Below are positions 11,895-63,038 of a stretch of 64,000 nucleotides of DNA, piece after piece (positions within the stretch are counted from its first letter, which is position 1; each line of letters starts with the position of its first letter). The position numbers were made by a program, and so were the translations under genes. Under the pieces are notes generated by a model. It ran no database searches, was not told where the DNA came from, and worked only from the letters and a program-made list of their open reading frames with translations. Source of the DNA: Pelagomonas calceolata (taxonomy: Eukaryota; Sar; Pelagophyceae; Pelagomonadales; Pelagomonadaceae); the NCBI GenBank assembly GCA_918797485.1, contig CAKKNE010000006.1:2046001-2110000 (forward strand), in the 5' to 3' direction.

Positions 11895-12515
11895 CTACTT
11901 CTTCTTGCTGCGCGTGGATCGCTTCGCCGGGGACTTCTTCGCGGCCGGCTTCTTGGCCGGAGACTTCTTGGCGGCCGTCTTCTTTTTGGCGGGGCTCTTC
12001 GCCTTCGAGGCCGGCTTCGCGGGACTCTTCTTGGCGGCCGGCTTCCTTGGCGACGCGGCCTTCTTCGCGGGCGACCTGTGCGTTGACCGGTGAGGCTCGA
12101 TCGCGTCGCATATTCTACGCAGCTCCGCACTTCTTCGCGGCGGGCTTGGCCGCGGGCTTCGCGGGCGACTTCTTCGCGGCCTGCGTAGAGAACGTGTCGA
12201 TGGCGCGACGACAGACAATGGAACACGGGGCCGCGCGGGCTTCTTGGGCGACTTCGCGGCGGGTTTCTTGGGCGTCGCCTTCTTCGGCGCGGGCCTGCTC
12301 GTAAACGCGTCATGGGAATAACATAGAAATCGCGTCCGGACGCCGCATGCTACTTCTTGGGGCTCTTCTTGGCGGCCGGCTTCTTCGCGGGCGACCTGTG
12401 CGGGGACCGGTGAGGCTCGGTCGCGTCGCATATTCGACGCGGCTCCGCACTTCTTGGCGGCCGGCTTCTTGGCGGCGGGCTTCTTGGCTGCGGGTTTTCG
12501 CTTGGCGGCGGCCAT
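11895..12515 (-). CDS. Histone H1-like lysine-rich protein (five exons)
   Basis: ATG at 12515. Inferred exons on the minus strand are 12515-12451, 12395-12354, 12294-12237, 12180-12131 and 12075-11895, giving 131 residues. The spliced product is almost entirely Lys-Ala-Pro-Ser with repeated KKSPAK/KKPAAK units, like linker-histone tails or dinoflagellate/bacterial HC-type proteins. No winged-helix globular domain is visible. Reading straight through gives nonlysine stretches exactly at the four introns, and removing them restores the repeat in every case. It probably condenses DNA in the nucleus. It is paralogous to the gene at 58263, with one intron at the same codon context. Confidence 0.8.
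   Translation of the reverse strand: MAAAKRKPAAKKPAAKKPAAKKCGAASNMRRDRASPVPAQVAREEAGRQEEPQEVACGVRTRFLCYSHDAFTSRPAPKKATPKKPAAKSPKKPARPRVPLSVVAPSTRSLRRPRRSRPRSPRPSPPRRSAELRRICDAIEPHRSTHRSPAKKAASPRKPAAKKSPAKPASKAKSPAKKKTAAKKSPAKKPAAKKSPAKRSTRSKKK
12076..12130 (-). other. Introner-like intron D of the H1-like gene (55 nt)
   Basis: Starts GTGCGGAGCT and ends CGCACAG on the minus strand, again splitting AAG AA|G in phase 2. It is a near copy of intron A 320 bases away. Confidence 0.75.
12181..12236 (-). other. Intron C of the H1-like gene (56 nt, probably GC-AG)
   Basis: GCGCGGCCCC...CTACGCAG, phase 0, containing GCGCCATCGACACG (reverse complement of the GTCGATGGCG core). A GT donor at 12224 (44 nt) would also keep frame. 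The GC donor gives the cleaner KKPAAKK join and the size typical of its neighbours. Confidence 0.6.
12295..12353 (-). other. Intron B of the H1-like gene (59 nt)
   Basis: GTAGCATGCG...GAGCAG, phase 2 after CCCAAGAA. Its internal CTATGTTATTC and ACGCGTT strings recur in the intron at 58576-58624 of the second H1-like gene, with matching flanking exons, so the two are homologous. Confidence 0.75.
12396..12450 (-). other. Introner-like intron A of the H1-like gene (55 nt)
   Basis: On the minus strand it starts GTGCGGAGCC and ends CCGCACAG, interrupting AAG AA|G (phase 2). GTGCGG and CCGCAC are terminal inverted repeats. It is identical to intron D at 50 of 55 positions and has the same length. 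Confidence 0.75.
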
Positions 12516-13267: not shown

Positions 13268-14912
13268 CTAGAACATCGGCGCCACGTCCTCGAGCGAATC
13301 GACGGAACCAGAAGCGCCAGAACGCATCACTCTAGAAAACTCCTCATAATCGACGTGGCCGTTCCGCTTCAAATCCCCGTCCTGCATGAGCGTCTCCACG
13401 AGCTCGTCGGAGGCCCGCGACCCTAATAACGATCGCAAGTTCTCCCTCGAGATAACCCCGCTATCGTCGTGGTCCATCCGATCGAACGTATCTTGCAAGA
13501 CTTCTTCATTGAGCAACTCGTGGGCCTCCAACGTCGCCGCTAAGAACTCGTGGTAGTGGACCTCGCCACTGCTATCATGATCCAACTTCGCGAAGACGTC
13601 TTTGGTTGGGGTATCGAGCTCGGCCACGCCGAGCGCCGCACACAGCTCCTTTTCATTTATCGTACCACTGGCATCAGTGTCTATTTTGAGAAATTCTTCC
13701 CTTAGCTTTTTTACCGATCTTTTATCGGTCTGCGCCGCCGCTATTATTAAGGCCGCCCGTTTCAGCTCCGTATAGGAGCCATATCTTTTGAGAGAGGACT
13801 CGAGCTCCGGGGCGAGTCGCGGGCTCTTGTCCCGCTTCTCCGTCGTCGCAGGAACATTCGTGTCGATGTTGACCGGCCGCAGGGCCTCGGGCCGCCAGTC
13901 GGCGAGGCCTGCGGGACGAAGCGTCGATGGCGTAACGGGAAACGGACGCCGCGCCCGCACAGTACTTCAACGCCGCGTCGGCCGCCCACCGCAGGCCCGG
14001 GTGCGGTCTTAAACATTTAAACACGAACGCTCTTCCGGGCCGCGACATGGTCGCGATGCGCCCCCAGTCGCAGTCGCCCGCTTCTAATCTTCTGAGAGCT
14101 TTGGGGTCGTCCCTACGGTCGTCTCTGAGGAACGGGTCCCGATCACCTACTAATCGATACACCATGGCACCAATGGACCACACGTCGGACACCATGAGGT
14201 ACTCCTCTCCTCTTATGACCTCTGGTGCTGCTGTGGACGTGGTGCCCGCAGCTTTAATGCCCGTCCTCGAACCATCTAGCGATTGCGGGAAAACCCTAGA
14301 CAGTCCAAAATCCACAATCGTGACGTGCCAGTCTTGTTGATCAGTAACCATGACGTTTTCTAGTTTCAAATCTCGGTGGAGGACCCTCCTCGCGTGTAAG
14401 TACGACACCGCCCGTAGGATCTGCTCCGTGGCTTTATAAACTTTACTTTCAGTGAGCTGCCCGCAGAACTCCGCCAGCTCCCGGCCCTCGCAGTACTCCA
14501 TCACCAGCACCAAGCGAGTGGGCTCCCAGAAGGCCTCCCTTAAATGGACTATGCTGGGGTGATCGACCTTGCGCAGCACGTCGATCTCGTGCCGCAGCTC
14601 GTTCCGCGTCGCCTCATCTAGTCTCAATCTCCCATTGTGCCGCATGTAATCTAAAGCTTTCATCGCGAAGACGCTTTCGCTCTTGACGCGTTGTAGGTTG
14701 TTCCGAGACGGCGTCCTCTCAATACTTCGATTGCCGTCCGCCTTCCGGCGGCACAACGCCACAGTGCCGAAGCTACCACTGTTTAGGTCCTTCAGCAACT
14801 CATAGACCTCGCAGAACTTGCGGCCGCTTCTTTCCCAGACGAGCTGCTCTCGAAAGTCGCGCTTCTGGGGCGACGGCGGCTTTTGCTGTTGTTTCGACGG
14901 GGCGCAGCCCAT
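13268..14912 (-). CDS. Calcium-dependent protein kinase (CDPK)
   Basis: ATG at 14912. Exons 14912-13961 and 13908-13268 give 530 residues, the normal CDPK length. The N-terminus MGCAPS predicts N-myristoylation and palmitoylation. Kinase motifs visible: glycine loop NSGSFG (~45-50), ATP-binding VFAMK, catalytic HRDLKLENV, metal-binding VDFGLS and AAPEV. The activation segment GTTSTAAPEV departs from the usual GTPYYxAPEV. Four EF-hands follow (IDTDASGTINEKE, LDHDSSGEVHYHE, MDHDDSGVISREN, GDLKRNGHVDYEE). It should phosphorylate targets on Ca2+ signals, probably at membranes. A 52-nt intron joins kinase and regulatory halves in phase 1. It is divergent from the gene at 15504. Confidence 0.94.
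13909..13960 (-). other. Introner-like intron of the CDPK gene (52 nt)
   Basis: Minus strand GTGCGGGCGCGG ... TCCCGCAG. The ends form an inverted repeat (GTGCGGG/CCCGCA) of the same type as introns A and D of the H1-like gene. It carries ACGCCATCGACGC. Splicing in phase 1 restores one 530-residue CDPK frame. Confidence 0.75.
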
Positions 14913-17476: not shown

Positions 17477-17543
17477 ACAGGCTTAGCAGGCGAGAGCGCT
17501 TTGCATCGTAAGGCTGCCCCCGAGCGATTTGACCATATACGAG

Positions 17544-18725
17544 ATGATCCTCACGCAGTGCGCCGTCTGCGCCGCCGAACTTGGCTTGTCGTTGGGGAAG
17601 AAATGCGGCCGCTGCAGCACACGCTACTGTGGGCCCGAATGCCAGAAACAACACTGGGAGGGAGGCGGCCATGACAAGATCTGTAAATTAATAAAAAAAG
17701 CTGGCGGCGCCGAGGCATACAACGCAAATAAGAAGTACACAGCGGCCGTCGCGGTCGCGGCGACGGCGTGCGCGGAGGACACGAAGGGGCAGACGTGCTA
17801 CATCTGCACGCAGGCCCTCCATTGGAAAACAAAGGAGGGTCTTGTGCGCGGGTGCTCGTGCCGCGGGACGGCGGGCTTTGCGCACGTGTCGTGTCTGGCG
17901 GAGGAGGCGAAGATCTTGTACGACGAGGCCGAGGAGAACAATTTAGACAACAAGGTGTTGAATGAGAGGTTTGGGCGGTGGCACACGTGCAGCCTGTGCG
18001 AGCAAAATTACCACGGCGTCGTGGAGTGCGCGCTTGGGTGGGCGTGCTGGAAGACATACGTCGGGCGGCCGGAGACTGACTGGGCTCGGAAATTCGCGAT
18101 GACGCTGCTTGCGAACGGTTTGTCCGCTGTAGACCACCACGAGGACTCGTTGCACGTGCAAGAGGCCGAGTTGTCTATGCGGCGGCGCCTTGGCGCATCG
18201 GAAGGCGACCTGCTCGTGGTGCAGGGCAATCTTGCGGGCACGTATAATCAGCTTGGACGACATGAAGAGGCCCTAAGCATAAAACGAGACGTATACTTCG
18301 GATGTTTGCGGCTCAATGGCGAAGAACATGAAGCCACCATCATAGAAGCCCTCAACTACGCGATGACCCTTGCTAGTCTCCAGCGCTTCGAAGAAGCCAG
18401 GTCACTGTTGCGCAAGACGATACCCGTGGTCCGGCGTAGTCGCGGAGAGAATAGTGAGAACACGCTCAGGATGAGGGGTTTGTACGCGACGGCGGTCTAC
18501 CTAGACGAAGGCGCCACGCTCGACGATCTCCGCGAAGCCGTGACGACGCTCGAGGAGACGGAACGGACCGCGCGGCGCGTGCTCGGCGGCGCGCATCCGC
18601 TCACAACGCTGACTGAGGGCCATTTGGGACTCGCGCGAGAAGCGCTCCGCACCCGCGAAAGCACAGGCGACGTCGAGTCCCTCCGCGAGGCCGTGGAGGC
18701 GATGACGCCGCCGGGTGACGCGTAA
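17544..18725 (+). CDS. MYND zinc finger / RING-CH-like / TPR protein (family copy 1)
   Basis: 393 residues; the ATG at 17544 was chosen because all four family copies begin MxLxQCAxC there. The MYND finger spans residues 6-47 (C6,C9,C21,C24,C29,C33,H43,C47). Residues ~85-155 hold a second Cys/His cluster resembling RING-CH: CYIC, GCSCRGTAGFAHVSCL, then W-x-x-CSLCEQ. The remainder is helical with kinesin-light-chain-like TPRs (NLAGTYNQLGRHEEALSIKRDVY). RING-CH domains often act as E3 ubiquitin ligases and MYND fingers bind proline-rich peptides, but activity here is inferred. Three further copies lie within 35 kb. Confidence 0.88.
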   Translation: MILTQCAVCAAELGLSLGKKCGRCSTRYCGPECQKQHWEGGGHDKICKLIKKAGGAEAYNANKKYTAAVAVAATACAEDTKGQTCYICTQALHWKTKEGLVRGCSCRGTAGFAHVSCLAEEAKILYDEAEENNLDNKVLNERFGRWHTCSLCEQNYHGVVECALGWACWKTYVGRPETDWARKFAMTLLANGLSAVDHHEDSLHVQEAELSMRRRLGASEGDLLVVQGNLAGTYNQLGRHEEALSIKRDVYFGCLRLNGEEHEATIIEALNYAMTLASLQRFEEARSLLRKTIPVVRRSRGENSENTLRMRGLYATAVYLDEGATLDDLREAVTTLEETERTARRVLGGAHPLTTLTEGHLGLAREALRTRESTGDVESLREAVEAMTPPGDA

Positions 18726-18765
18726 TTTACTAGAGAAAAACAAGCAAACTTATATGTACATGACT

Positions 18766-25666: not shown

Positions 25667-25722
25667 GTCGCGTGGCTTCCCTTTTGCTCTCTAACGTTAC
25701 GTTTTCGATATACCTAGCATGA

Positions 25723-26898
25723 TTAGGCGCTCCCCGGCGGCGTCATGGCCTCGACGGCGTCGCGGAGGGAGTTGACGTCGCCTTCATGGGCGCGGAGCGC
25801 TTCTCGCGACATTTCTAGGGCGTGCTCGATCGCCTTTGTGGTTGGGTACGCGCTGCCGAACACGCGCCGCGCAGTCCGTTCTAACTCCTCCAGCGTCGTC
25901 ACGGCTTCGCGGAGATCGTCGAGAGTGGCACCTTCGTCTAGGGAGAGCGTCGTCGCGTACATTATCTGCATCCTAAGCGTGAGGTCATTACAGTCTCCAA
26001 GAAAACGCCGCGCCACAGGGGTCATTTTGCAGAGCACCTTCCTGGATTCTTGGTAGCGCTCGAGATTAACAAGGGACACCGCGTAGTTGAGGGCTGATAC
26101 GAGGGTCTCTTCGTTTTCTTCGCCACTGAACTTCAAATTTCCGGAGTATACCTTTTGCCGCAGGCGCAATGAATCTTCAAGCCGTCCAAGCAGTTGATAG
26201 GTGGTCGCAAGATTGCCCTGCACAACGAGAATGTTGTCTTCCGAATCACCAAGGCGCCGCCGCATAGACAACTCGGCCTCTTGCACGGACAACGCGTCCT
26301 CATGGTGATTATTCTCGGATAAACCGCTCCCAAGCAGGCTCATCGCGAATTTCCGAGCCCAGTCAGTCTCCGGCCGCCCGACGTATGTCTTCCAGCACGC
26401 CCACCCGAGCGCGCACCGTACGACGCTGTGGTACATTTGCTCGCAGAGGCTGCACGTGTGCCACCGCCCAAACCTCTCATTCAAGACCTTGTCGTCTAAA
26501 TTGTTCTCCTCGGCTTCCGCAACCAAAATCTTCGCCTGCTCCGCGAGACACGATACATGCGCGAAGCCCGCCGTCCCGCGACAGGAGCACATGCGCACGA
26601 GGCCCTCCTTCGTTTTCCAATGGAGGGCCTGCGTGCAGATATAGCACGTCTGCCCCTTCGTGTCCTCCGCGCACGCCTCCGCCGCGACTACGACAGCCTC
26701 CGTGTACTTAATATTTGCGTTGTACTGTTCGGCGCCGCCCGCTTTTTTTATCAATTTGCAGAGCTTGTCATGGCCGCCGCCCTCCCAGTGTTGTTTCTGG
26801 CATTCGGGCCCACAGTAGCGTGTGCTGCAGCGGCCGCATTTCTTGCCCAAGGTCAGCCCAAGGTCGGTGGCGCAGACGGCGCACTGCGTGAGGATCAT
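25723..26898 (-). CDS. MYND zinc finger / RING-CH-like / TPR protein (family copy 2)
   Basis: 391 residues from the ATG at 26898. The MYND finger (residues 6-47), the CYIC...CSCRGTAGFAHVSCL...CSLCEQ cluster and the KLC-like TPR region match copy 1, with the closest similarity in the first ~190 residues. It ends in the same EAMTPPGSA-type tail as copy 1 (EAMTPPGDA). It lies tail-to-tail with CCT8 (57 bases apart) and divergent from the Nup93 gene. Confidence 0.88.
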   Translation of the reverse strand: MILTQCAVCATDLGLTLGKKCGRCSTRYCGPECQKQHWEGGGHDKLCKLIKKAGGAEQYNANIKYTEAVVVAAEACAEDTKGQTCYICTQALHWKTKEGLVRMCSCRGTAGFAHVSCLAEQAKILVAEAEENNLDDKVLNERFGRWHTCSLCEQMYHSVVRCALGWACWKTYVGRPETDWARKFAMSLLGSGLSENNHHEDALSVQEAELSMRRRLGDSEDNILVVQGNLATTYQLLGRLEDSLRLRQKVYSGNLKFSGEENEETLVSALNYAVSLVNLERYQESRKVLCKMTPVARRFLGDCNDLTLRMQIMYATTLSLDEGATLDDLREAVTTLEELERTARRVFGSAYPTTKAIEHALEMSREALRAHEGDVNSLRDAVEAMTPPGSA

Positions 26899-26950
26899 TG
26901 GATGCAATTTGGGCAGCTCCTGGCCCCCACTTGGGCCGCCCGATAATCTG

Positions 26951-30165: not shown

Positions 30166-31884
30166 ATGAGCGCTGCGCAGGACGCCGACGCGGCGAAAGA
30201 GGACGACGCCCCGGCCCTCCGCAAGCTCTTCGTCGCGGGAATAGCAATAGGCGCGCTCGTCGCCCTCACCCTGCCGACCACAACGCAAGAGAGACGGCGC
30301 CTCACCCCGGACCCGCAATTAAATGGCTGCTTCGAGGGCGCCGGCTGGAACAGCGCGACGCGCGTCGATCGGTTAGCGGCGCTCCAAGAAGTGAACCCGG
30401 ACATCCCCGCCTCGATCCAGACGGGGCCCACGAGGGCGTGGGTGCTCGGGAGGGGCTCCTGGGAGTCTTACAGTAGTGATGAGGTCATCCCATCCGCCTG
30501 CGAGGAAATTGACGTCGTCGTGGCTCATAGTGGAGCTGATAGGTGTCTGTTGCTGTCTGGTGCCGCATCTTCCGCAGTACCGCACCACGTGACGCGGTGG
30601 GAGCGCCACCCTTCTTCTCCGACGGGATGGTCCGTGGTATCTCGCATACGGGAGTCGAGGCAACGCATGCCTGGGGAAGGCACCAGGAAGCGCGCTCGGA
30701 CGCTCGCGGCTCGCTTGTATTCGAGACTCGACGACGTCTTCGCGTCCCTAGAACCCTTACTGAAGAAGGCGGCAGTACATACGCATCCGGCGTACAAGGC
30801 CACGATGGGCTCAAACACGAAAGGAGCGGTCCTCATCATGTGCGTGAACTGGGGCAATTTAGATTTGCTCATGAACTTTCTGAGGAGCGCGTGCGACAAA
30901 CAGATAGACATCCAGAATTTAATCGTTTTCGCGGCGGATCCCAAGGTCGAGAAAGCGCTCAAAGCCATCGGGGTGTTGGTGTTCTCGCACGACGCGCTTG
31001 GATCCTTTACCGCTGGAGCGGCGCGATCGTATGGCGACCATACGTTTGTCGAGATGATGTGGCTCAAGCTGACGTGCGTCTACCTCGTAAACGCGTTGGG
31101 CTACGACCTCCTCTTCCAGGACGCGGATTTGTACTGGTGGCGCGAGCCCTGGTCGTTCTTCGCGACGCGACCGGATATAGATACCTTTTGGATGGACGAC
31201 GGCGCTAGGACCAGTCGTTTCGCACCGTTGTATCCCAATACCGGATACTATCTCATCAGGCACAACCCTAGGACAGCGTTACTGTGTGAGACGCTCGTCG
31301 GGATGTATGACGTGGTACTCGCGTGGCAAAGTCACCAGGCCGTCGTGTCCCAGGTCTTAGGTGAATTCCACGCCTTGCACGCGTTGACGGTGAAGATATT
31401 AGATAAAATAGAATTCCCGTCGGGCAAGCAGTTCCACCACAACCGCGCTCTATTTGAAAAGATAAAACGCAAGGAATTCGAGCCCTACTGCTTCCACATG
31501 TGCTGGACGGCGGGCAAGGCCGACAAGTTGAAATTCCTCAAGCAAGATGGGTTGTGGTACCTCGAGGAGTCTTGTGCCTTGAAGAACCTGGACGCGGACG
31601 ATGCGGCGTCCGTCCGGCGGTGCGGGCTCGGGCCGGCGACGTGCGCCTTCGTCGGCGGGAACTAAGATTGATGTGCCGTACTCGTCTAGTTATCGCTGTA
31701 GTCTCCCTAGGAGGACGCGGCGCACGCCATCAACGCGGCGATTCGTCGCGCCGGCCTCGAAGGGCGACGCAAGACGAATCCGGTCGTCGACGGGCAACTG
31801 GTCCCCCGCGAGCGAAAGATGACGAAGAAGCGCCGCCGCGACGAGCCCGCCGCCACGCCGTCGCCGCGCGCCCGCCGCCGCTAG
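30166..31884 (+). CDS. Type II membrane glycosyltransferase (nucleotide-diphospho-sugar transferase, PF03407-like)
   Basis: ATG at 30166. A hydrophobic stretch at ~22-42 (LFVAGIAIGALVALTL) predicts a signal anchor, placing the catalytic domain in the Golgi lumen. The catalytic part begins near residue 220: VLIMCVNWGNLDLLMNFLRSA, MMWLKLTCVYLVNALGYDLLFQDADLYWWREPW (the DAD is the DxD metal/nucleotide-sugar motif), NTGYYLIRHN, and CFHMCW. An open frame ends at 31665 (499 residues). However, a 60-nt GT-AG intron at 31651-31710 would replace the last five residues with a 57-residue basic exon ending at 31884 (begins EDAAHAINAAIRRAGLEG), and this exon looks coding. The acceptor sugar is unknown. 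Confidence 0.78.
31651..31710 (+). other. Possible 3' intron of the glycosyltransferase (60 nt)
   Basis: GTCGGCGGG ... TCTCCCTAG, phase 0, same size as several other introns here. It contains the alternative stop TAA at 31663-31665. Confidence 0.45.
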
Positions 31885-34723: not shown

Positions 34724-36295
34724 TCAGCCGCCGCGCCGCCGCTTGACGCTCTTGCTTGGAGACTCCCCTAAGCGCTCCTCGGCGTCGCGGGCTTTGCTTC
34801 TCTTATGGGTCCGCGTGGTGCGGTCGTCCCGCGGTCTCTCAACGAAGAAGAAAAGCGCGTTCGTGACGTGGCAGTCGGCCGCCGCGGGAACGACCCACTC
34901 GAGCGTCGCGATTTCCTCTTTGGAAAACGCGTAGTGTACCTCTGGCCACGTGCTGGGGCAGGCTTTGAAATTCTGAGCCAGCTCGCACTCGAAGACAGCG
35001 GCAACGTCGTAGAGCTTGCCGCCGACGTCGACGCCGCGATCCGGGCCAGCAGCTAGTCCGTGATGCGTTAAGGCGTAGTTGAGCGCGAGCGGGAGCGCGG
35101 GCGTCGTGTAGACCCCGGCGCCGTGTACACTACGGTTCGCTGCCGGGCTTGGGTCGATGCCGCCGCCCCCCACAATCTGTGGGACGTTTTCCATGTCTGT
35201 GCCGTGGAACACCCGTTCGGACCAATCCCCCTCCTCCGGGCGCCCGCCGTTCGTGAGGCCGATGCGAACCACAACGGAGGCCGAAGCTGACCGGTCCGAG
35301 AGTGCCCTTAGGTTTCGTAAGGGGATGACCTCCGTCCACCGATCGTTACGAGATTCCTCCGGGACGTATCCTTCCGCTTTTTGCAAAAAGGCACTGTAGA
35401 CTTGGTGATGGTTCGCCGCGCTGCGAGTCATAGGAGAACCCGCAGCATAGGAACCGAGACCGAAGCCAACGTGCAGCGGCCCCGCGCCGGGAGGGGCGCC
35501 GGGTCCCGTGGCAAGAGCGCCGGCGTCGTCGTCGCTACTCTCCTCCTTGGTCATGTCGATGACGCGCTGCGCCGGCCTCGGAGCGAGCAACGCGGGCGCA
35601 GCGGCCGCCGGCGGCGCTGCTGGCGCGGCGACTGGCGCGGGCGCGAGCGGCGCCGGCCTCGGAGCGGGTTGCGCGGGCGCATCGGCCGCCGGCCGCGCTG
35701 TTGGCGCGGCGACTGGCGCGGGCGCGAGCGGCGCCGGCCTCGGAGCGGGTTGCGCGGGCGCATCGGCCGCCGGCCGTGCTGCTGGCGCTGCGACTGGCGC
35801 GGGCGCGAGCGGCGCCGGCCTCGGAGCGGGTTGCGCGGGCGCATCGGCCGCCGGCCGTGCTGCTGGCGCGGCGACTGGCGCGGGCGCGAGCGGCGCCGGC
35901 CTCGGAGCGGGTTGCGCGGGCGCATCGGCCGCCGGCCGTGCTGCTGGCGCTGCGACTGGCGCGGGCGCGAGCGGCGCCGGCCTCGGAGCGGGTTGCGCGG
36001 GCGCATCGGCCGCCGGCCGCGCTGCTGGCGCGGCGACTGGCGCGGGCGCCGGCGCCGCGGCCGCGAGCTTGCACTCCCAGCCGCGCGCCCTACACAACAC
36101 CACCACACAGCGCCGGAGCTTGGACCGCGCGAGGCTGCTCCAGCCCTCCGTGATGGCCGGGATGTCCTCGTCGACGGCTTCGCTGAAGTCACTCAACGCG
36201 TCGACCTGCCGCAGCAGGTGCGCGCGCTGGGGCTCCGTGAAGTTGTTGCGGACGAGCCAGGCCTCGACCTCATCCGTGCAGTCGGCCTGGCTCAT
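34724..36295 (-). CDS. PARP-like ADP-ribosyltransferase-fold protein with an Ala/Pro repeat linker
   Basis: 523 residues from the ATG at 36295 (MSQADCTDEVEAWL). Residues 1-75 form a helical domain. About 160 residues of Ala/Pro repeats (27 residues each, from an 81-bp tandem repeat) follow. The C-terminal ~200 residues look like a PARP catalytic fold: ERVFHGTDMENVPQIV (H-G-T of motif 1), GAGVYTTPALPLALNYA (G-x-Y motif 2) and a downstream Glu in IATLEWVVP that could complete H-Y-E. It ends in a basic nuclear-type tail (KRSKARD, KSVKRRRGG). ADP-ribosyltransferase activity is inferred. Neither the zinc-finger nor the WGR domain of classical PARPs is present. Confidence 0.7.
   Translation of the reverse strand: MSQADCTDEVEAWLVRNNFTEPQRAHLLRQVDALSDFSEAVDEDIPAITEGWSSLARSKLRRCVVVLCRARGWECKLAAAAPAPAPVAAPAARPAADAPAQPAPRPAPLAPAPVAAPAARPAADAPAQPAPRPAPLAPAPVAAPAARPAADAPAQPAPRPAPLAPAPVAAPAARPAADAPAQPAPRPAPLAPAPVAAPTARPAADAPAQPAPRPAPLAPAPVAAPAAPPAAAAPALLAPRPAQRVIDMTKEESSDDDAGALATGPGAPPGAGPLHVGFGLGSYAAGSPMTRSAANHHQVYSAFLQKAEGYVPEESRNDRWTEVIPLRNLRALSDRSASASVVVRIGLTNGGRPEEGDWSERVFHGTDMENVPQIVGGGGIDPSPAANRSVHGAGVYTTPALPLALNYALTHHGLAAGPDRGVDVGGKLYDVAAVFECELAQNFKACPSTWPEVHYAFSKEEIATLEWVVPAAADCHVTNALFFFVERPRDDRTTRTHKRSKARDAEERLGESPSKSVKRRRGG
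35560..36060 (-). repeat. 81-bp coding minisatellite, about six units
   Basis: The string GACTGGCGCGGGCGC recurs with exact 81-bp spacing (units beginning near 35628, 35709, 35790, 35871, 35952 and 36033). Units are nearly identical, differing mainly at GCGCTG/GCGCGG positions and in the partial edge units. Because 81 is divisible by 3, copy-number change keeps the reading frame. Confidence 0.93.
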
Positions 36296-42840: not shown

Positions 42841-43063
42841 CTTCCCGATGGGGCAGCCTCCCAGCCGGCATCCACAAGGCTTGTCTTTTGGGCCTTGTCG
42901 CGGCGGCGCGCGCCACGGCTCCGGGCGCGTGGTTTAGGGCTGCGAGGGGTGCTGGCGCGTCGGGCCTCGATTTAAAAAAAAAATACCCGTACGGGCTCTG
43001 CGCGCGGCAAAACACTCAGGGATTTCGCACGAATAAGCCGTCGGGGCTGCCTCTCACGGAAAA

Positions 43064-44215
43064 ATGATCCTCACCCAATGCGCATTTTGTGCTGTCGACC
43101 TTGGCCTAACTTTGGGCAAGAAATGCGGCCGCTGCAGCACACGCTACTGTGGGGCCGCCTGCCAGAAAAAGCACTGGGAGGAGGGCGGCCATGACGCGCT
43201 CTGCAAAGCAATAAAAAAAGCTGGCGGTGCCGAGCAATACCACGCAAATAACAAGTACGCAGCGGCCGTAGCAGTCGCGACGAAGGCGTGCGCGGACGAC
43301 ACGAAGGGCCAGACGTGCTACATCTGCACGCAGGCCGTGCATTGGAAGACAAAGGAGGGCCTCGTGCGCGGGTGCTCGTGCCGCGGGACGGCGGGATTTG
43401 CGCACGTGTCGTGCCTGGCGGAGCAGGCGAAGATTTTGATCGCGGAGGTCGAGGAGAACAATTTGGGTGCTAATGCGTTGGATGAGAGGTGGCATCGGTG
43501 GCATAAGTGTAGCCTGTGCGAGCAAGAGCACCACGGCGTCGTGGCATGCGCGCTCGGGTGGGGGTGCTGGAAGACTTACGTCGGGCGGCCGGAGAGGGAT
43601 CTGTCTCGGATCAGTGCGATGAGGCGGCTTGGGAACGGTTTATCCGCCGCAAAGCACCAGGAGGACGCGTTATCCGTGAACAAGGCCGAGTTGTCTCTGC
43701 TGCAGCGCCTTGGCGCATCGGAAGAGAGCATACTCGCCGTGCGGCACAATATTGCGATGGTGTATCAGGGGCTTGGACGGTACGAACAGGCCCTACAGAT
43801 GAAGCGAGACGTATACTCCGGACGTTTGAGGCTCAGCGGCGAAGAACATCAAGAGACCATCCGATCAGCCGTCAACTACGGGAGCGCCCTTCTTTCTCTC
43901 GGGCGATTCGAAGAGACCAAGTCGTCGTCAAAGAAAATTTTGCCCGTGGCACGACGCGTTCTCGGAGAGAATCACCAACTCACGCTCACGATAAGGTTCG
44001 CTTACGGGGTGGCGCTCTACCAAGACGACGGTGCCACGCTCGACGATGTCCGCGAAGCTGTGACGACGCTCGAGGACACGGAACGGACCGCGCGGCGCGT
44101 GCTCGGCGGTACGCATCCGACCGTAGTGTCGATTGGGGAAGCACGGCGAGACTCGCAAGCGGCGCTCGCGGCCCGCGAAGCGGGGTGCGCGTACTCCTAT
44201 AAGATTAGAGTCTGA
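43064..44215 (+). CDS. MYND zinc finger / RING-CH-like / TPR protein (family copy 3)
   Basis: 383 residues from the ATG at 43064. MYND (C6 to C47) and RING-CH-like cluster as in copies 1 and 2, with LGL/GKKCGRCSTRYCG fully conserved. The TPR section is intact (NIAMVYQGLGRYEQALQMKRDVY). The C-terminus differs: instead of the shared EAMTPPG tail it ends in AREAGCAYSYKIRV, suggesting a 3' truncation or frameshift after the last common helix. It ends 22 bases from the convergent gene at 44238. No good copy of the promoter motif was found upstream, unlike copies 1 and 4. Confidence 0.85.
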   Translation: MILTQCAFCAVDLGLTLGKKCGRCSTRYCGAACQKKHWEEGGHDALCKAIKKAGGAEQYHANNKYAAAVAVATKACADDTKGQTCYICTQAVHWKTKEGLVRGCSCRGTAGFAHVSCLAEQAKILIAEVEENNLGANALDERWHRWHKCSLCEQEHHGVVACALGWGCWKTYVGRPERDLSRISAMRRLGNGLSAAKHQEDALSVNKAELSLLQRLGASEESILAVRHNIAMVYQGLGRYEQALQMKRDVYSGRLRLSGEEHQETIRSAVNYGSALLSLGRFEETKSSSKKILPVARRVLGENHQLTLTIRFAYGVALYQDDGATLDDVREAVTTLEDTERTARRVLGGTHPTVVSIGEARRDSQAALAAREAGCAYSYKIRV

Positions 44216-44942: not shown

Positions 44943-45324
44943 CGTATGTGTGTCGCGTCGACGGCGTGGAGGGTGTCGAGGCTGCCGGTGGCAGCGGCTT
45001 GCTGCCTTGGCGCAATATGTCTGCAGCGCGAGGCGCCGCTGTGTCTGAGAGCGCCCGACGCGGCCGCGGTGAGAGATCCCTCCGCGAGGCGGGAAAGACC
45101 TGCCGTAGAGCTCAGGGACCGGTGGAAGGTCGCTGGTCCCGCGCCTCGGGCCGCGCTCTCTGCCACCAAGGCAAGAGAGAGGGCAGGCGCTGCAGCTCGC
45201 GCGCGACGCCATCGCGGCGACCAGCGACGACGCGAGGCGTCGCAGGTGCCACGCGCGCGCCCGACCACGACCGCTGCGGCTGCTGAGCTCGTTGCCGGGG
45301 CTGCCCCGCCACAACAGCACGACC

Positions 45325-47294: not shown

Positions 47295-47481
47295 TCAACC
47301 TTGTCTCGTTTTTTCGTGCAAGGCCAAGCAAGTCAGCCCGTAGAGATCTAGCCATTCCACTGTGCGCGCAGCAGCCCCGCAGCCTGCGCCGTTCGGAGCC
47401 CGGCCCCGCCCGGTGACTGGGGCCCCAAAAAGTATAGAGCTCCGAGGTGCACACCTCGTCCACGCCGTCGACGCGACAATC

Positions 47482-51387: not shown

Positions 51388-52545
51388 TTAGGCATCCCCG
51401 AGCGTCGTCGCGAGCATCGCTTCGGCGATCTCGTGGGCGCGGAGCTTGGCCCGAGCCTTTTTCAGGTCGTGCTCCATCTGCATTGCGAGCGGGTGCGCGC
51501 CACCGAACACACGCCGCGCGATCCTTTCGTTCTCCTCGAGCAATGTCACGGCCTCGTGGAGATCGTCGAGCGTGGCGCCCTCGTCGTTGTAGAGCGACTG
51601 CGCGTAAGACATCCTCATCGCGATCGTGAGTTCATAATTCTCTCCGAGGACGCGTCGCGCCACGGGCATTATTTTGCGCAGCAGCGACTTGGCTTCTTCG
51701 AAGCGCTTTAATTTAAAAAGGGTTGCGGCGAGGTTATTGACTGATATGATGGTATCCCGATGTTCCTCACCTAACAGCCTCAAGGACCCATCGTATACGT
51801 CCCGTTCGAGCTGAAGGGAATGTTCAAGCCGTCCGAGATATTGGTACGTATTCGCAAGATTGGTCTGCGCGGCGAGTATGCTTGATGCTGGCGCGCCACG
51901 GCGTAGCTGCATGGACAACTCGGCCTTTTTCACGACCAACGCTTCTGCATGGCGTCCAGTTTCGTCTAAACCGCTCCCAAGTGTGTTCATCGCCATGACA
52001 TAGATCTTATCCGTCTCCGGCCGCCCCAAGTAGGTCTTCCAGCACGCCCACCCGAGCGCGCACTTCACGAGGCCGTGGTACCCTTGCTTGCACATACTAC
52101 ACTCGCACCACCGCACCCACCTCTCATTCTTCACCTTCCAGTCCAAATTGTTCTCCACCGCTTCCGCGACCAAAATCTTCGCCTGCTCCGCCAGACACGA
52201 AACATGCGCGACGCCCGACGTCCCACGGCACGCACATCCGCGCACGAGGCCCTCCTTGGTCTTCCAGTGGAGGGCTTGCGTGCAGATGTAGCACGTCTGG
52301 CCCTTGGTGTCGTCCGCGCATTTCTCCGCCGCGACCGTCACTGCCTCCGTGTATTTTTTATTTGCGTTGTATTGCTCGGCGCCGCCGCTTTTCTTGATCT
52401 TCTTGCAGAGCGTGTCGTGTCCGCCTTCTTTCCAGTGCTGCACCTGGCATTCGGGCCCACAGTAGCGCGTGCTGCAGCGGCCGCATTTCTTGCCCGAGGA
52501 TAGCCCAAGTTCGGCAGCACAGCAGGCGCATTGGATGAGGAGCAT
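51388..52545 (-). CDS. MYND zinc finger / RING-CH-like / TPR protein (family copy 4)
   Basis: 385 residues from the ATG at 52545 (MLLIQCACC). MYND and RING-CH-like cysteines are all retained (CYIC, GCACRGTSGVAHVSCL, CSMCKQ). The TPR region reads NLANTYQYLGRLEHSLQLERDVY. The C-terminus HEIAEAMLATTLGDA departs from the EAMTPPG tail. It is the most divergent copy in the second Cys cluster. It lies tail-to-tail with CWC25 (18 bases apart) and has a close match of the promoter motif 70 bases upstream. Confidence 0.87.
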   Translation of the reverse strand: MLLIQCACCAAELGLSSGKKCGRCSTRYCGPECQVQHWKEGGHDTLCKKIKKSGGAEQYNANKKYTEAVTVAAEKCADDTKGQTCYICTQALHWKTKEGLVRGCACRGTSGVAHVSCLAEQAKILVAEAVENNLDWKVKNERWVRWCECSMCKQGYHGLVKCALGWACWKTYLGRPETDKIYVMAMNTLGSGLDETGRHAEALVVKKAELSMQLRRGAPASSILAAQTNLANTYQYLGRLEHSLQLERDVYDGSLRLLGEEHRDTIISVNNLAATLFKLKRFEEAKSLLRKIMPVARRVLGENYELTIAMRMSYAQSLYNDEGATLDDLHEAVTLLEENERIARRVFGGAHPLAMQMEHDLKKARAKLRAHEIAEAMLATTLGDA

Positions 52546-52614
52546 CTCTTATGGTCAAATCGCTCGGGGACAGCCCTACGATGAAAAATGCTGCAAAAGC
52601 CTCGGCTGTGAAAA

Positions 52615-56390: not shown

Positions 56391-57133
56391 CTAGCGCCCG
56401 GCGTCGATGCCGAACATCCAGAAGAATACGAACACGTAGAACGTGACGGCCAGCGAGACCAACGAGAAGATCACGCCGCCGTCCGCACGAATGCCGAAGA
56501 GCCGAGCGTCGTGGACGCGGTTGTATATTTCTAGCTGTTCGGCGGCGCAAGCCAATATCTCGTCGGACGCCTGGGCGCGCGCCGCGAGTGCTGGGAACTG
56601 CGCCGCGTTGGCCTGGGCCGCGAGGCGCCGCTGCGCGAACAATGAGACCGCGGTCTCGCACTTCTCGTTCGCGAGCGCCGCGAAATAGGCCTGTGATTAT
56701 GCGCATCAACGCCATGCCGTCGCGTCGATGGCGTGCCGCGCGAAGAGTCAAGACGCCGGGTCCGCGCCGACGCGACCAGGACGAGGAACAGGAGCAGCAG
56801 GAAGAAGAGCAGCGCCCACGTCCGCGACTGCGTCAGAAGCTTCCGCTGGTGGTCGGTCACGAGCTGAATGAAGAAGTCGACCATGGCCCCGCCGAGGACG
56901 ACCGTCACGAGCACCAAGTAGTACTCCGCTCGTCTCTCGTAGCGGAACCCGAAGCTCCCAAGCACGGCGCGCCCCTGCACCCACACGATGCCATCCAACG
57001 GCCGCTGGCAGATCTGCAGGCGCGGGATCGGCGCGCCGCCCAGGTTGCACGCCTCGCGCCGCACCAGTAATCGGATGTAGGCCGAGAGCACTGCGAGGGC
57101 ATCGATGCGTGAGTTGTTGCCGTACGTGGACAA
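56391..57133 (-). CDS. Unrecognised membrane protein (spliced; 5' end not resolved)
   Basis: Exons end 56768 and begin 56690 in the inferred splice. The first exon is open up to ~57133 and beyond, with no ATG in frame, so a further 5' exon is likely. Visible strings: LAVLSAYIRLLVRREACNLG, GAPIPRLQICQRPLDGIVWVQG, then two hydrophobic helices (YYLVLVTVVLGGAMVDFFIQLV, ALLFFLLLLFLVLVAS). Exon 2 adds AYFAALANEKCETAVSLFAQRR, a helical amphipathic region and a final helix (IFSLVSLAVTFYVFVFFW). No family was identified. It lies tail-to-tail with heliorhodopsin, 31 bases apart. Confidence 0.6.
56691..56767 (-). other. Introner-like intron of the membrane-protein gene (77 nt, GC-AG)
   Basis: GCGCGGACCC ... 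AATCACAG, phase 0. It contains CACGCCATCGACGCGACGG. The donor GCGCG matches H1 intron C and H1b intron 3. Removing it restores helix-forming sequence on both sides. Confidence 0.6.
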
Positions 57134-58262: not shown

Positions 58263-59171
58263 ATGGCGAAGAAGAGCCCGAAGAAGCCCACCAAGGCCAA
58301 GGCCGCGGCTAAAAAGAAGAATCCCGCCAAGCACTGTTGCGGCGTAATCATTACGTACGCGTGCCCTCGAGCGCCGCACATCTCAAAAGACAAGCGCCGC
58401 AGCCCGCCGCAGCGGTCAACACCGTCGCGCGCGCGCGTCGCCTTACACACGCGGTGAAACTGTCGACGCTCTCGAGACGCGAATCGGAGTTTCACCACAC
58501 CCCCCACCACAGGCCCGCGGCCAAGGCTAAGAAGTCGCCCGCCAAGCCGGCGTCGGCCAAGAAGAGCCCCAAGAAGTAGCAAGCCGTGTCTGGACCCTAT
58601 GTTATTCTCACGAACGCGTTACAGGCCCGCGCCCAAGAAGGCGACGCCGAAGAAGAGCCCCAAGCCCGCGGCCAAGTCGCCCAAGGCCGCCAAGCCCGCC
58701 GCGAAGGCCAAGCGCGACGGCGGCGTCCGACGTCGCGTCGACGGCGTCCGGGCCGACCGCGCCGACCGCAGGTCGCCCAAGGCCGCCAAGCCGGCCGCCA
58801 AGTCGCCCAAGGCCGCCAAGAAGTCGCCCGCGAAGCCCGCCTCGAAGGCCAAGTCGCCGGCCAAGAAGAAGAGCCCCGCCAAGAAACCGGCCTCGAAGGC
58901 GAAGAGCCCCGCGAAGAAGAAGACGGTCGCCAAGAAGTCGCCCGCCAAACCTAAAGCGGCGCCGAAGAAGAGCCCGAAGAAGGCCGCCTCGCCCAAGGCG
59001 AAGAAGCCTGCGGCGAAGCCGGCCGCCAAGAAGCCCGCGGCCAAGCCGGCCAAGGCGCCGTCGAAGGCGTCGGGCACGCGCAAATCGAAGCGCTCCGTCG
59101 CGAAGTCGTCGATCCCCGTCGCGCAGCGCGGCTCGGCGATGATGGCGAACGAGTACGGGGAGAGCCTCTAG
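58263..59171 (+). CDS. Histone H1-like lysine-rich protein (four exons)
   Basis: Inferred exons 58263-58330, 58513-58575, 58625-58711 and 58772-59171 give 205 residues. It begins MAKKSPKKPTKAKAAAKKK and continues as K/A/P/S repeats (KSPAKP, KSPKAAK, KPAAKPAAKK). The last ~35 residues change to a less repetitive end (KSKRSVAKSSIPVAQRGSAMMANEYGE). No globular winged-helix is visible. The straight reading has an in-frame TAG within intron 2. Exon 2/3 boundary context (AAGAGCCCCAAGAA|...|GCCCGCGCCCAAGAAGGC) matches the first H1-like gene, so the two are paralogues. It is likely a DNA-condensing protein. Confidence 0.82.
58331..58512 (+). other. Intron 1 of the second H1-like gene (182 nt, GC-AG)
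   Basis: GCACTGTTGC ... CACCACAG, phase 2, splitting AA|G. A GC donor is the one that gives a clean KPAAK join. A GT donor at "AC|GTACGC" could also keep frame. Confidence 0.55.
58576..58624 (+). other. Intron 2 of the second H1-like gene (49 nt)
   Basis: GTAGCAAGCC ... GCGTTACAG, phase 2. It is homologous to intron B of the first gene by position and by CTATGTTATTC...ACGCGTT. Confidence 0.8.
58712..58771 (+). other. Intron 3 of the second H1-like gene (60 nt, GC-AG)
   Basis: GCGCGACGG ... GACCGCAG, phase 2, containing CGTCGCGTCGACGGCGTCC. It is 60 nt, so unspliced reading stays open but inserts a non-lysine block. Confidence 0.65.
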
Positions 59172-60685: not shown

Positions 60686-63038
60686 ATGCTTCTGGGACGC
60701 GTCCTGATCGCTCGGTGTGTTGCCACCGCTTTCCGCCCAGCCCCGCGAGCCGTGCGGCTCTCGACACTGCCAGCAGCCATGATCGACCTCACCCAAGACT
60801 CACCACCACAAAAGAAGCGCCGCACGGAGGCCACGCCCAGCGGCGCCCTCGTCCACACGCTCGCAAGGACGCACAACGTCCAGGAGCACACGATCGGCGC
60901 AGTGCGACGTTTGTTGGTCGACGAGCAGCGCACGGTGCCCTTCGTGGCGCGCTACCGGGCCCAGGAGACGCAGCACCTGCCGCCGGACGCGCTGCGCGCG
61001 ATACTGGACGCGCTGCACGGCGCCGCGGCGCTCGAGGCGAAGCGCCAGAAGGTCCTCGAGGCGATGCGGGCCGCGAACGCGTCGCCCGAGGCGTTATCGG
61101 CGGCGCGGCGCGCCGGCACGCTGCGAGCTTTAGATGATGCCTACGCGCCCTTCAAGGGCTCGGCGAAGTGCTCCAAGGCGGCGAAGGCGCGCGAGGACTT
61201 CCCCGCGAGCGACCGGATCGTCGCATCACTATTAGCAAGGGGCGAGGAGCCGCGGCACCTCCACCCGAAGCAGAAGGAATGCGTACTACTCGTCTTAGCC
61301 GACGCCGTGGCCAAGGACCCGCGCGCGCGGGCCGCGACGCAGCGCCGTTTTGTAAGGGGCACGGTCGCGGCCAAGAAAGGCAAGGAGCCGAACGCCGAGT
61401 ACCGCTTCTACGAGGGCTGGTCGAGACCGTTGAGACGGGTCGCGGGCCACGCGTGGCTCGCGCTCGAAAGAGCCTCGAAGGCCAAGGCGTTATCACTGAG
61501 TATAGACCCCGGAGGTGATGATAGGGAGGCCGTGCGGGACCTGGCCCAATGTTTAAACCTGCGCCATTCGAAGTTCGCGGCACCAGCTCTCAAGGACGCC
61601 TGGACGCGCCTCTTGAAGCCGCGCGGCCGGCGCGAGGCGAAGCGCGACGGTTTACTAAGGGCCAAGGACGAGGCCATCGCGTGCTTCGCTTCGAATGTAA
61701 AGAAGCTCCTCGAGCAGGCGCCTCCGTTGATAGATGATGGAAGTGTATTAGCCGTGGACCCGGGGTTCCGGCACGGCCACAAGTGCTGCATCGTATCCGG
61801 TAGAGACGGGTCGCTGTTGACGCATTTCACGGTCGACGCGCCCGGGGCCGAGGATGATATGAAACAGGCGTCGAAGCGCCTCGATGGTATGATAGGCGAT
61901 CATACTATTACTTGTGTCGCGATTGGTGATGGGACAAATACAAGAGGCGCGCAGCGACTGGTGGCTTCTACTCCGAAACTATCAAAAGTTCCGAGAGCCG
62001 TCGTGAGGGAGTGCGGCGCGAGTGTCTACTCGGCGAGCGATAGTGCTGCCAAAGAGTTCGGCGAAAACGTGCCTCTGTCCGCGCGGGGCGCGGCGTCGCT
62101 CGCGCGGCGGTTATTGGACCCGCTCGGCGCTTTTCCGCGTGGGAATCAACCAGTACGTGTCGCGTCGATGGCGTTTACCCTCGACGCCATCGAGCAGACA
62201 GCACACCGTCGAGCAGCCACAAAGACAACGCCGCGTCGCAGGCGAGTACGTCAAGCTGGACCCGAAGACGCTCGGCGTCGGCTCCTACCAGCACGACTTA
62301 GATGCCAAGCAGCTCCGAAGAGCCTTGGACGGGGCCGTCGAGGACGCCGTGAGTGGCGTCGGCGTCGACGCGAACGGCGCGTCCTCGGCACTTTTAGAAA
62401 GAGTCGCTGGGCTGAATGCGACCTTAGCCAAGGCTCTCGTGGCTGATAGGCCGTTCTCTTCGCGCAACGACCTGAAACGAGTGAAAGGATTGGGCCCGAA
62501 GACGTTTGACAATGTGGCGGGTTTCCTGCGCGTGTCAAATTCGCGCGAGGTCCTCGACGCGACGCGTATCCACCCGGACGACTACGGCGAGGCCTGGCGC
62601 TTGTTGCGGAAGGCCGGCGTTTCATCAGATGATGTACAACGCGCTTCTGTCAAAGGCGGCGGTTTAGGTTCAGACACAATTGAAAAACTACGAAGGCTCC
62701 CGCCGTCGTCGCTCGTCGAATTACTGTGCGACCCTTGTTTAGCCGGCGACGCGCGGTATGTATTGGCGCCGCCGCCCATCCTGGAAAGAGGGGCACCGCT
62801 CACTTTGAAGGATTGTAACGTGGGAAGGGTCTTCGCGGGGACCGTGCGCAACGTGGCTCCTTTTGGCGCTTTCGTCGATATTGGGGTCGGCGTGGACGGG
62901 CTCTTGCACTCCTCGCAGTTCGGCCCTTCGGATAGGATTGAAATAGGGGCGCGCGTCGACGTGGCCGTGGTGGAGGTCGACGAGCCTAGAAGGCGTGTCG
63001 GCTTGCGGTTGGCGCGGAAGCGGGGGCGGGACCCGTGA
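60686..63038 (+). CDS. SRBD1: Tex/SRBD1-like S1 RNA-binding protein (two exons)
   Basis: Exons 60686-62126 and 62242-63038 give 745 residues. The first 30 residues (MLLGRVLIARCVATAFRP) could be an organelle leader; a second ATG at 60779 (MIDLTQDSP) would give a shorter product without it. Motifs of the Tex family: VPFVARYRAQ, LALSLSIDPGG-type YqgF/RNase-H region with DPGFRHGHKCCIV, GDGTNTRGAQRL, SARGAASLARRLLDPLG|EYVKLDPKTLGVGSYQHDL, helix-hairpin-helix (RVKGLGPKTFDNVAGFL), and a C-terminal S1 domain (GRVFAGTVRNVAPFGAFVDIGVGVDGLLH). Tex proteins bind nucleic acids and associate with transcription. Only removal of a GC-AG intron gives the conserved DPLGEYVKLDPK run. Confidence 0.93.
62127..62241 (+). 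other. Introner-like intron of the Tex/SRBD1 gene (115 nt, GC-AG)
   Basis: GCGCTTTTCC ... CGTCGCAG, phase 1. It carries a perfect hairpin TCGATGGCG (loop 11 nt) CGCCATCGA. A GT donor (GTACGTG) with a later AG also keeps frame but adds a non-conserved insert to the Tex sequence. Confidence 0.75.

Follow-up and report, generated by a model that had tools for sequence, protein, structure and literature searches.

Introners, that is, introns derived from DNA transposons, have already been inferred in Pelagomonas calceolata from a peak in intron length at about 210 bp (Guerin et al. 2022, PMC9481584). For P. calceolata RCC100, the published assembly comprises 32.4 Mb in six nuclear contigs together with a plastid and a mitochondrial one (PMC9481584). 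In its passages on the elements, that paper describes neither their sequence and inverted repeats nor the length of a duplication or the way they are spliced (Guerin et al. 2022, PMC9481584), and within the literature covered by our search we met no description of the sequence of such a family in P. calceolata. In the work of Gozashti et al. (2022, PMC9860276), families were kept when they held at least four introns, similarity reaching well beyond the intron was filtered out, and a target-site duplication was not a feature of every introner family (49 of 130). In this regard, we compared with these systems a pair of near-identical introns found in one H1-like gene of P. calceolata.

The window, by which we mean the whole stretch of 64,000 nucleotides analysed, contains on its minus strand an H1-like gene (H1a, 11895-12515) with five exons (exons 1 to 5: 12451-12515, 12354-12395, 12237-12294, 12131-12180 and 11895-12075). 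Its introns, all on the minus strand, are A (12396-12450, 55 nt, GT-AG), B (12295-12353, 59 nt, GT-AG), C (12181-12236, 56 nt if GC-AG; 12181-12224, 44 nt if GT-AG) and D (12076-12130, 55 nt, GT-AG). When A, B, the 56-nt form of C and D are excised, the exons join into a single continuous H1-like protein of 131 aa, rich in K, A, P and S. The Pfam model HC2 (histone H1-like nucleoprotein) matches H1a with an E-value of 9e-9 and 36.1 bits, which is below the curated cut-off of 40. From the sequence, we infer that all four introns of H1a are spliced.

A sequence-only reading of this DNA had reported the coordinates and the equal lengths of A and D, their identity at 50 of 55 positions and their common AAG AA|G context, all of which held on recomputation. 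The two introns align without any indel on the same strand, both in phase 2 and both within AAGAA|GTCGCCC, and a 66-nt query taken from A retrieved D with a BLAST E-value of 7.8e-21, far above chance. The same reading ascribed a short terminal inverted repeat to the pair; in A we found the 6 bp as described (GTGCGG/CCGCAC), whereas D has no more than 5 bp (GTGCG/CGCAC). All five differences set a C in A against an A or a T in D, as would be expected of a decaying copy. Downstream of the introns 16 exonic bases are identical, and upstream 5, where the similarity ends. Exon 2 (12354-12395, minus strand, 42 nt) and the start of exon 5 (12016-12075, minus strand) are identical at 39 of 42 positions, which needs one 18-nt gap, the additional 18 nt being in exon 5, and the divergence is similar in intron (5/55) and exon (3/42, the gap aside). 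We also looked for an 8-bp target-site duplication in the flanks of A and D, and it was absent at both.

A paralogue, H1b (58263-59171, plus strand), carries three predicted introns at 58331-58512, 58576-58624 and 58712-58771. The second is the homologue of B, with 42 of 48 paired bases identical and 12 gap columns by alignment count. The counterpart of the intron A site in H1b (58529-58575, plus strand) is uninterrupted: AAGAA is followed directly by 42 nt that run up to the B homologue and match H1a exon 2 at 36 of 42 positions, with the same AAGAA in front and no intron between. Therefore, A was either gained precisely in H1a or lost precisely from H1b, without added bases. A lysine-rich locus on contig C4 was considered as a third H1 gene and rejected; the repeat in its lysine-rich parts appears to be another one.

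The sequence-only reading took A and D for introners, and the copy number in the genome (32,445,274 bases in 8 contigs) did not bear this out. A DNA search of the 32.4 Mb with the 66-nt query (E up to 10) yielded no sequence other than A and D, although a missing match in such a search does not amount to absence. Two overlapping patterns of 30 and 33 nt, which together span the whole intron, matched only A and D genome-wide with up to 3 mismatches, and the control gave 0. A profile built from A and D likewise found nothing in the window, H1b included, except A and D themselves (E up to 10). Since all genome matches found are confined to H1a, the outcome that the sequence-only reading itself had named as refuting, A and D are not supported as introners. 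The terminal pair GTGCGG...CCGCACAG was tried as a family signature and discarded, as it occurred 24 times genome-wide and 42 times in the reversed control, without enrichment.

The suspicion that introners exist in this genome gained support from a family that we refer to as the resident family. When up to 2 mismatches are allowed, its core CACGCCATCGACGCGNCGTC has 2,130 matches genome-wide, as opposed to 3 in the reversed control, and its end CTGTGTGGAAATCAAAT has 2,179 (0 in the control); the elements carry inverted repeats of roughly 15 bp and target-site duplications of 8 bp. We sampled 60 of 70 listed exact matches to the core, setting aside places with one mismatch, three apparent copies from a duplicated region of contigs C1 and C5, and seven others. 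Over the first ~343 kb of C1 and C5, core matches fall at near-equal coordinates (for example C1:40670 and C5:40622), as would follow from the 393-kb duplicated ends that have been reported (PMC9481584). In an unrestricted scan, duplications and inverted repeats were called in 43 of 60 loci but also in 26 of 60 after shuffling; because of this noise, we turned to an end-anchored scan. Both ends could be located (11 or more of 17 bases) in 31 of the 60 loci, and the other 29 were not delimited. Duplicated flanking bases (7-8 of 8) occurred at 16 of the 31 loci and at 5 of 930 cross-locus pairs, the former figure being inflated because the ends were chosen partly by their duplication score. The 31 delimited elements measure 62-343 nt, five of them 195-211 nt, and the longest, L034 (343 nt), has weak ends and no duplication.

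The coding character of the joined empty sites was assessed by codon scores, since stop-free length is uninformative in GC-rich DNA. Among the 22 callable loci, 18 were joined in one coding frame, 2 were out of frame and 2 were strand-discordant (9 of the 31 were not callable); where the duplication was clear (16 loci), all 11 callable sites were in frame. In these 18 in-frame loci, the core strand ran with the gene in 7 and against it in 11. At two loci, L006 and L051, four in-frame codons are gained when CTGT is retained along with the 8-bp copy, and at L051 a cut two bases earlier gives a frameshift; L051 lies outside the 31 delimited loci, and its 8/8 duplication comes from the unrestricted scan. 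For the resident family, a splice outcome of +12 nt, in which CTGT and the 8-bp copy are retained, is thus probable on present sequence evidence. Element L022 begins with CAGTGC, as do L007, L008 and L012, and a frame-keeping +12 splice in L022 needs GC-AG borders (CAGT|GC...). The resident family is very large and likely consists of intron-making transposons. A search for an autonomous partner gave one match to a hAT dimerisation domain (E 1.9e-4), whose 3.2-kb locus contains no family end with up to 3 mismatches, and a search for MULE transposases gave no match. Viral contigs showed no exact match to A, D or the resident family end, in a search from which records close to the P. calceolata genome were possibly excluded.

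Three introns in the window combine the core ACGCCATCGACGCG with family-like sequence, namely the intron of a neighbouring kinase gene, intron C and intron 3 of H1b. The first (13909-13960, minus strand) is 52 nt long, has CT in front (CTGTGCGGG...) and contains the resident core as ACGCCATCGACGCTTCGTCC; its gene, in which a protein kinase domain was matched, had been named 'CDPK' in the sequence-only reading. Within intron C, CGCCATCGACACG resembles the core, and in H1b intron 3 (58712-58771) the core lies on the opposite strand. Among 2000 interior shuffles of each intron, the family score was reached by 4 for the kinase intron, 2 for intron C and 1 for H1b intron 3. The core profile gave E-values of 0.0061 for the kinase intron and 0.00012 for H1b intron 3 in the window, and of 0.0095 for intron C in a search space of 621 bases only. 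The kinase intron and intron C were each equalled by 30 of 2793 GT..AG stretches of the window, some of which are themselves family pieces. Judged from its sequence, the kinase intron appears to be a member of the resident family. Its length, its ends and the suspicion that it is an introner stood, but not the close kinship with A and D that had been proposed for it, as the A/D profile finds A and D alone in the window. GC-AG borders are also read in H1b introns 1 and 3, where they allow in-frame splicing, and in one reading of intron C; together with L022, these readings suggest that GC-AG introners may be common in this genome. Further core-profile matches lie at 31718-31747, 44952-44971, 47460-47477, 56717-56744 and 62159-62174 (E 2.8e-5 to 0.0049). 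Apart from introns, the window also holds four related copies (17495-18726, 25722-26899, 43063-44178 and 51431-52592), two per orientation and about 72-88% alike in pieces, and a tandem array at 35482-36129 with an 81-nt unit (a multiple of three), whose inner copies are about 95% alike.

Exon-intron duplication inside a repetitive gene is a general mechanism, and it is probably what produced the pair in H1a: we consider A and D to be two copies of one spliceosomal intron, D being a within-gene copy of A together with exon 2. The identity of the two introns, the lack of any further copy found in the genome, the common exon flank and the empty site for A in H1b are the evidence for this reading, whereas the duplication event itself and its direction from A to D are what we infer from them. 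Duplication within the gene had been offered as the alternative in the sequence-only reading, and the shared exon flank and the H1b site make it the better fit. An ancestral H1a would already have carried A, whether H1a gained it once the two genes had separated or H1b lost it. About 95 nt, containing A and most of exon 2, would then have been copied as a block into the lysine-rich tail downstream, giving rise to D and the start of exon 5, probably through unequal crossing-over or slippage between repeated AAGAAG units. We propose that, because such a block contains splice sites of its own and keeps the phase at its junction, the frame would survive and both introns would be removed. As for its first origin, A may possibly be a much-deleted member of the resident family.

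The flanks were also evaluated by ranking pairs of AAGAA|G sites of the same phase in the H1a coding sequence, in which the repeats are AAG-rich. Among the 59 pairs at least 72 nt apart, A-D ranked 2nd for the downstream flank, 25th for the upstream flank and 2nd for both flanks summed, and the pair that came first for the sum (80/230) has the A-D alignment register shifted by 15 nt. This ranking excludes 32 pairs closer than 72 nt; when they were included, A-D ranked 16th of 91 downstream and, by identity over 60 nt without gaps, 15th of 91; four other pairs tie with its 21-base identical run and one of the 91 exceeds it. We take the ranking to favour duplication, while flank similarity is weak proof since H1a is of low complexity. 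The duplication reading also assumes the 18-nt gap between exon 2 and exon 5, and the homologous block starts almost at the 5' edge of the intron, a boundary that would be seen after an insertion too.

It is unlikely, in our estimation, that A and D are instead separate introner insertions, possibly of short, deleted members of the resident family. The resemblance on which such a reading draws is a 3' block, CCTCACCGGT, common to A and D in front of CCCCGCACAG / CAACGCACAG and similar to the family end CTCACTGGTTGATTTCCACACAG. Its score was reached at 2 of 190 control sites in the window with a similar terminus, and block and terminus together were matched at 3 (A) and 26 (D) of 127,656 window positions. 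In end-anchored comparisons with the family, the score of A was reached by 33 of 2000 interior shuffles and by 33 of 2793 GT..AG stretches of 53-59 nt from the window (other family pieces included), and that of D by 338 and 171, respectively; in a narrower set of 55-mers, the figures were 2 of 417 for A and 23 of 417 for D. These tests are suggestive only, because they were prompted by a resemblance noticed beforehand, and on sequence grounds the likeness of A to the family seems marginal and that of D nothing beyond chance in the shuffle test. The shortest resident element (L031) measures 62 nt, and H1b has no A/D-like intron and an empty site for A. However, only the two copies were found, both in H1a, and in a local comparison with the family 73 of 600 random 55-mers from the window scored as high as A and 101 of 600 as high as D, which puts both at chance level. 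The core profile found nothing significant in A or D (no match with default filters; with filters off, the best was in A with 0.7 bits and E 0.32 in 621 bases), and the A/D profile applied to the 60 sampled loci gave one weak match (L027, 11.7 bits, E 0.019), the second having E 3.2. Neither intron has a target-site duplication or CTGT on its 5' edge, and A adds no coding bases relative to H1b, whereas resident members would each contribute 12. To arise as two insertions, A and D would further have needed the same 21-base site in the same phase and orientation.

A copying route through RNA is about equally improbable. Here, the RNA of A would have been reverse-spliced into its own transcript at the repeat of its exon junction and copied back into DNA, or the copy would have arisen by gene conversion; on the RNA route, D would be A moved as RNA, and A itself perhaps a stripped-down introner without a duplication signature. 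The precise position between AAGAA and GTCGCCC, with nothing duplicated, fits a transfer of this kind, as does the 5' edge of the homologous block, which lies nearly at the 5' end of the intron, and a third AAGAAGTCGCCCGCGAAG, uninterrupted in exon 4, indicates that the motif recurs as a target. The further likeness of exons 2 and 5 (39 of 42 with a gap) is not predicted by such a transfer, and the remaining features are explained equally well by duplication of DNA. If true, D would be a rare within-gene intron copy caught early. Far less credible still is that A and D are no introns but retained coding sequence. Unspliced, 11895-12515 is an open frame of 206 codons without an internal stop, and the four introns total 225 nt, a multiple of 3, so that full retention would still yield a full-length, largely different protein. 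In that unspliced form, however, the exons lie in different frames, with exons 2 and 4 outside the lysine-rich frame in which H1b encodes exon 2 without A, and A, B and D have GT-AG ends.

Near-identical introns in one repetitive gene are insufficient for an introner call, and what decides is the number of copies across the genome, the exon flanks and the presence of empty sites in paralogues. The description of the resident family, comprising its ends, core, 8-bp duplication and probable +12 nt, concerns an abundant ocean alga and can be used for dating intron gains across strains. In comparison with the systems described so far, the ~210-bp peak of Guerin et al. (2022, PMC9481584) fits the 31 delimited elements with their range of 62-343 nt and five members of 195-211 nt. 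As far as family 4 of Aureococcus sp. is presented in Gozashti et al. (2022, PMC9860276), the resident family resembles it in its inverted repeats, 8-bp duplication and element-borne splice sites, and its inferred 4 + 8 = 12 extra coding bases are as in that family (PMC9860276). Unlike the introners covered there (PMC9860276), A and D form a pair within a single gene, with similarity running into the exon and no target-site duplication. They are more like an exon-intron duplication, with homology that takes in the intron and the adjoining exon in the same phase and strand and no further copies found, although the evidence of the flanks is blurred by the low-complexity tail of H1.
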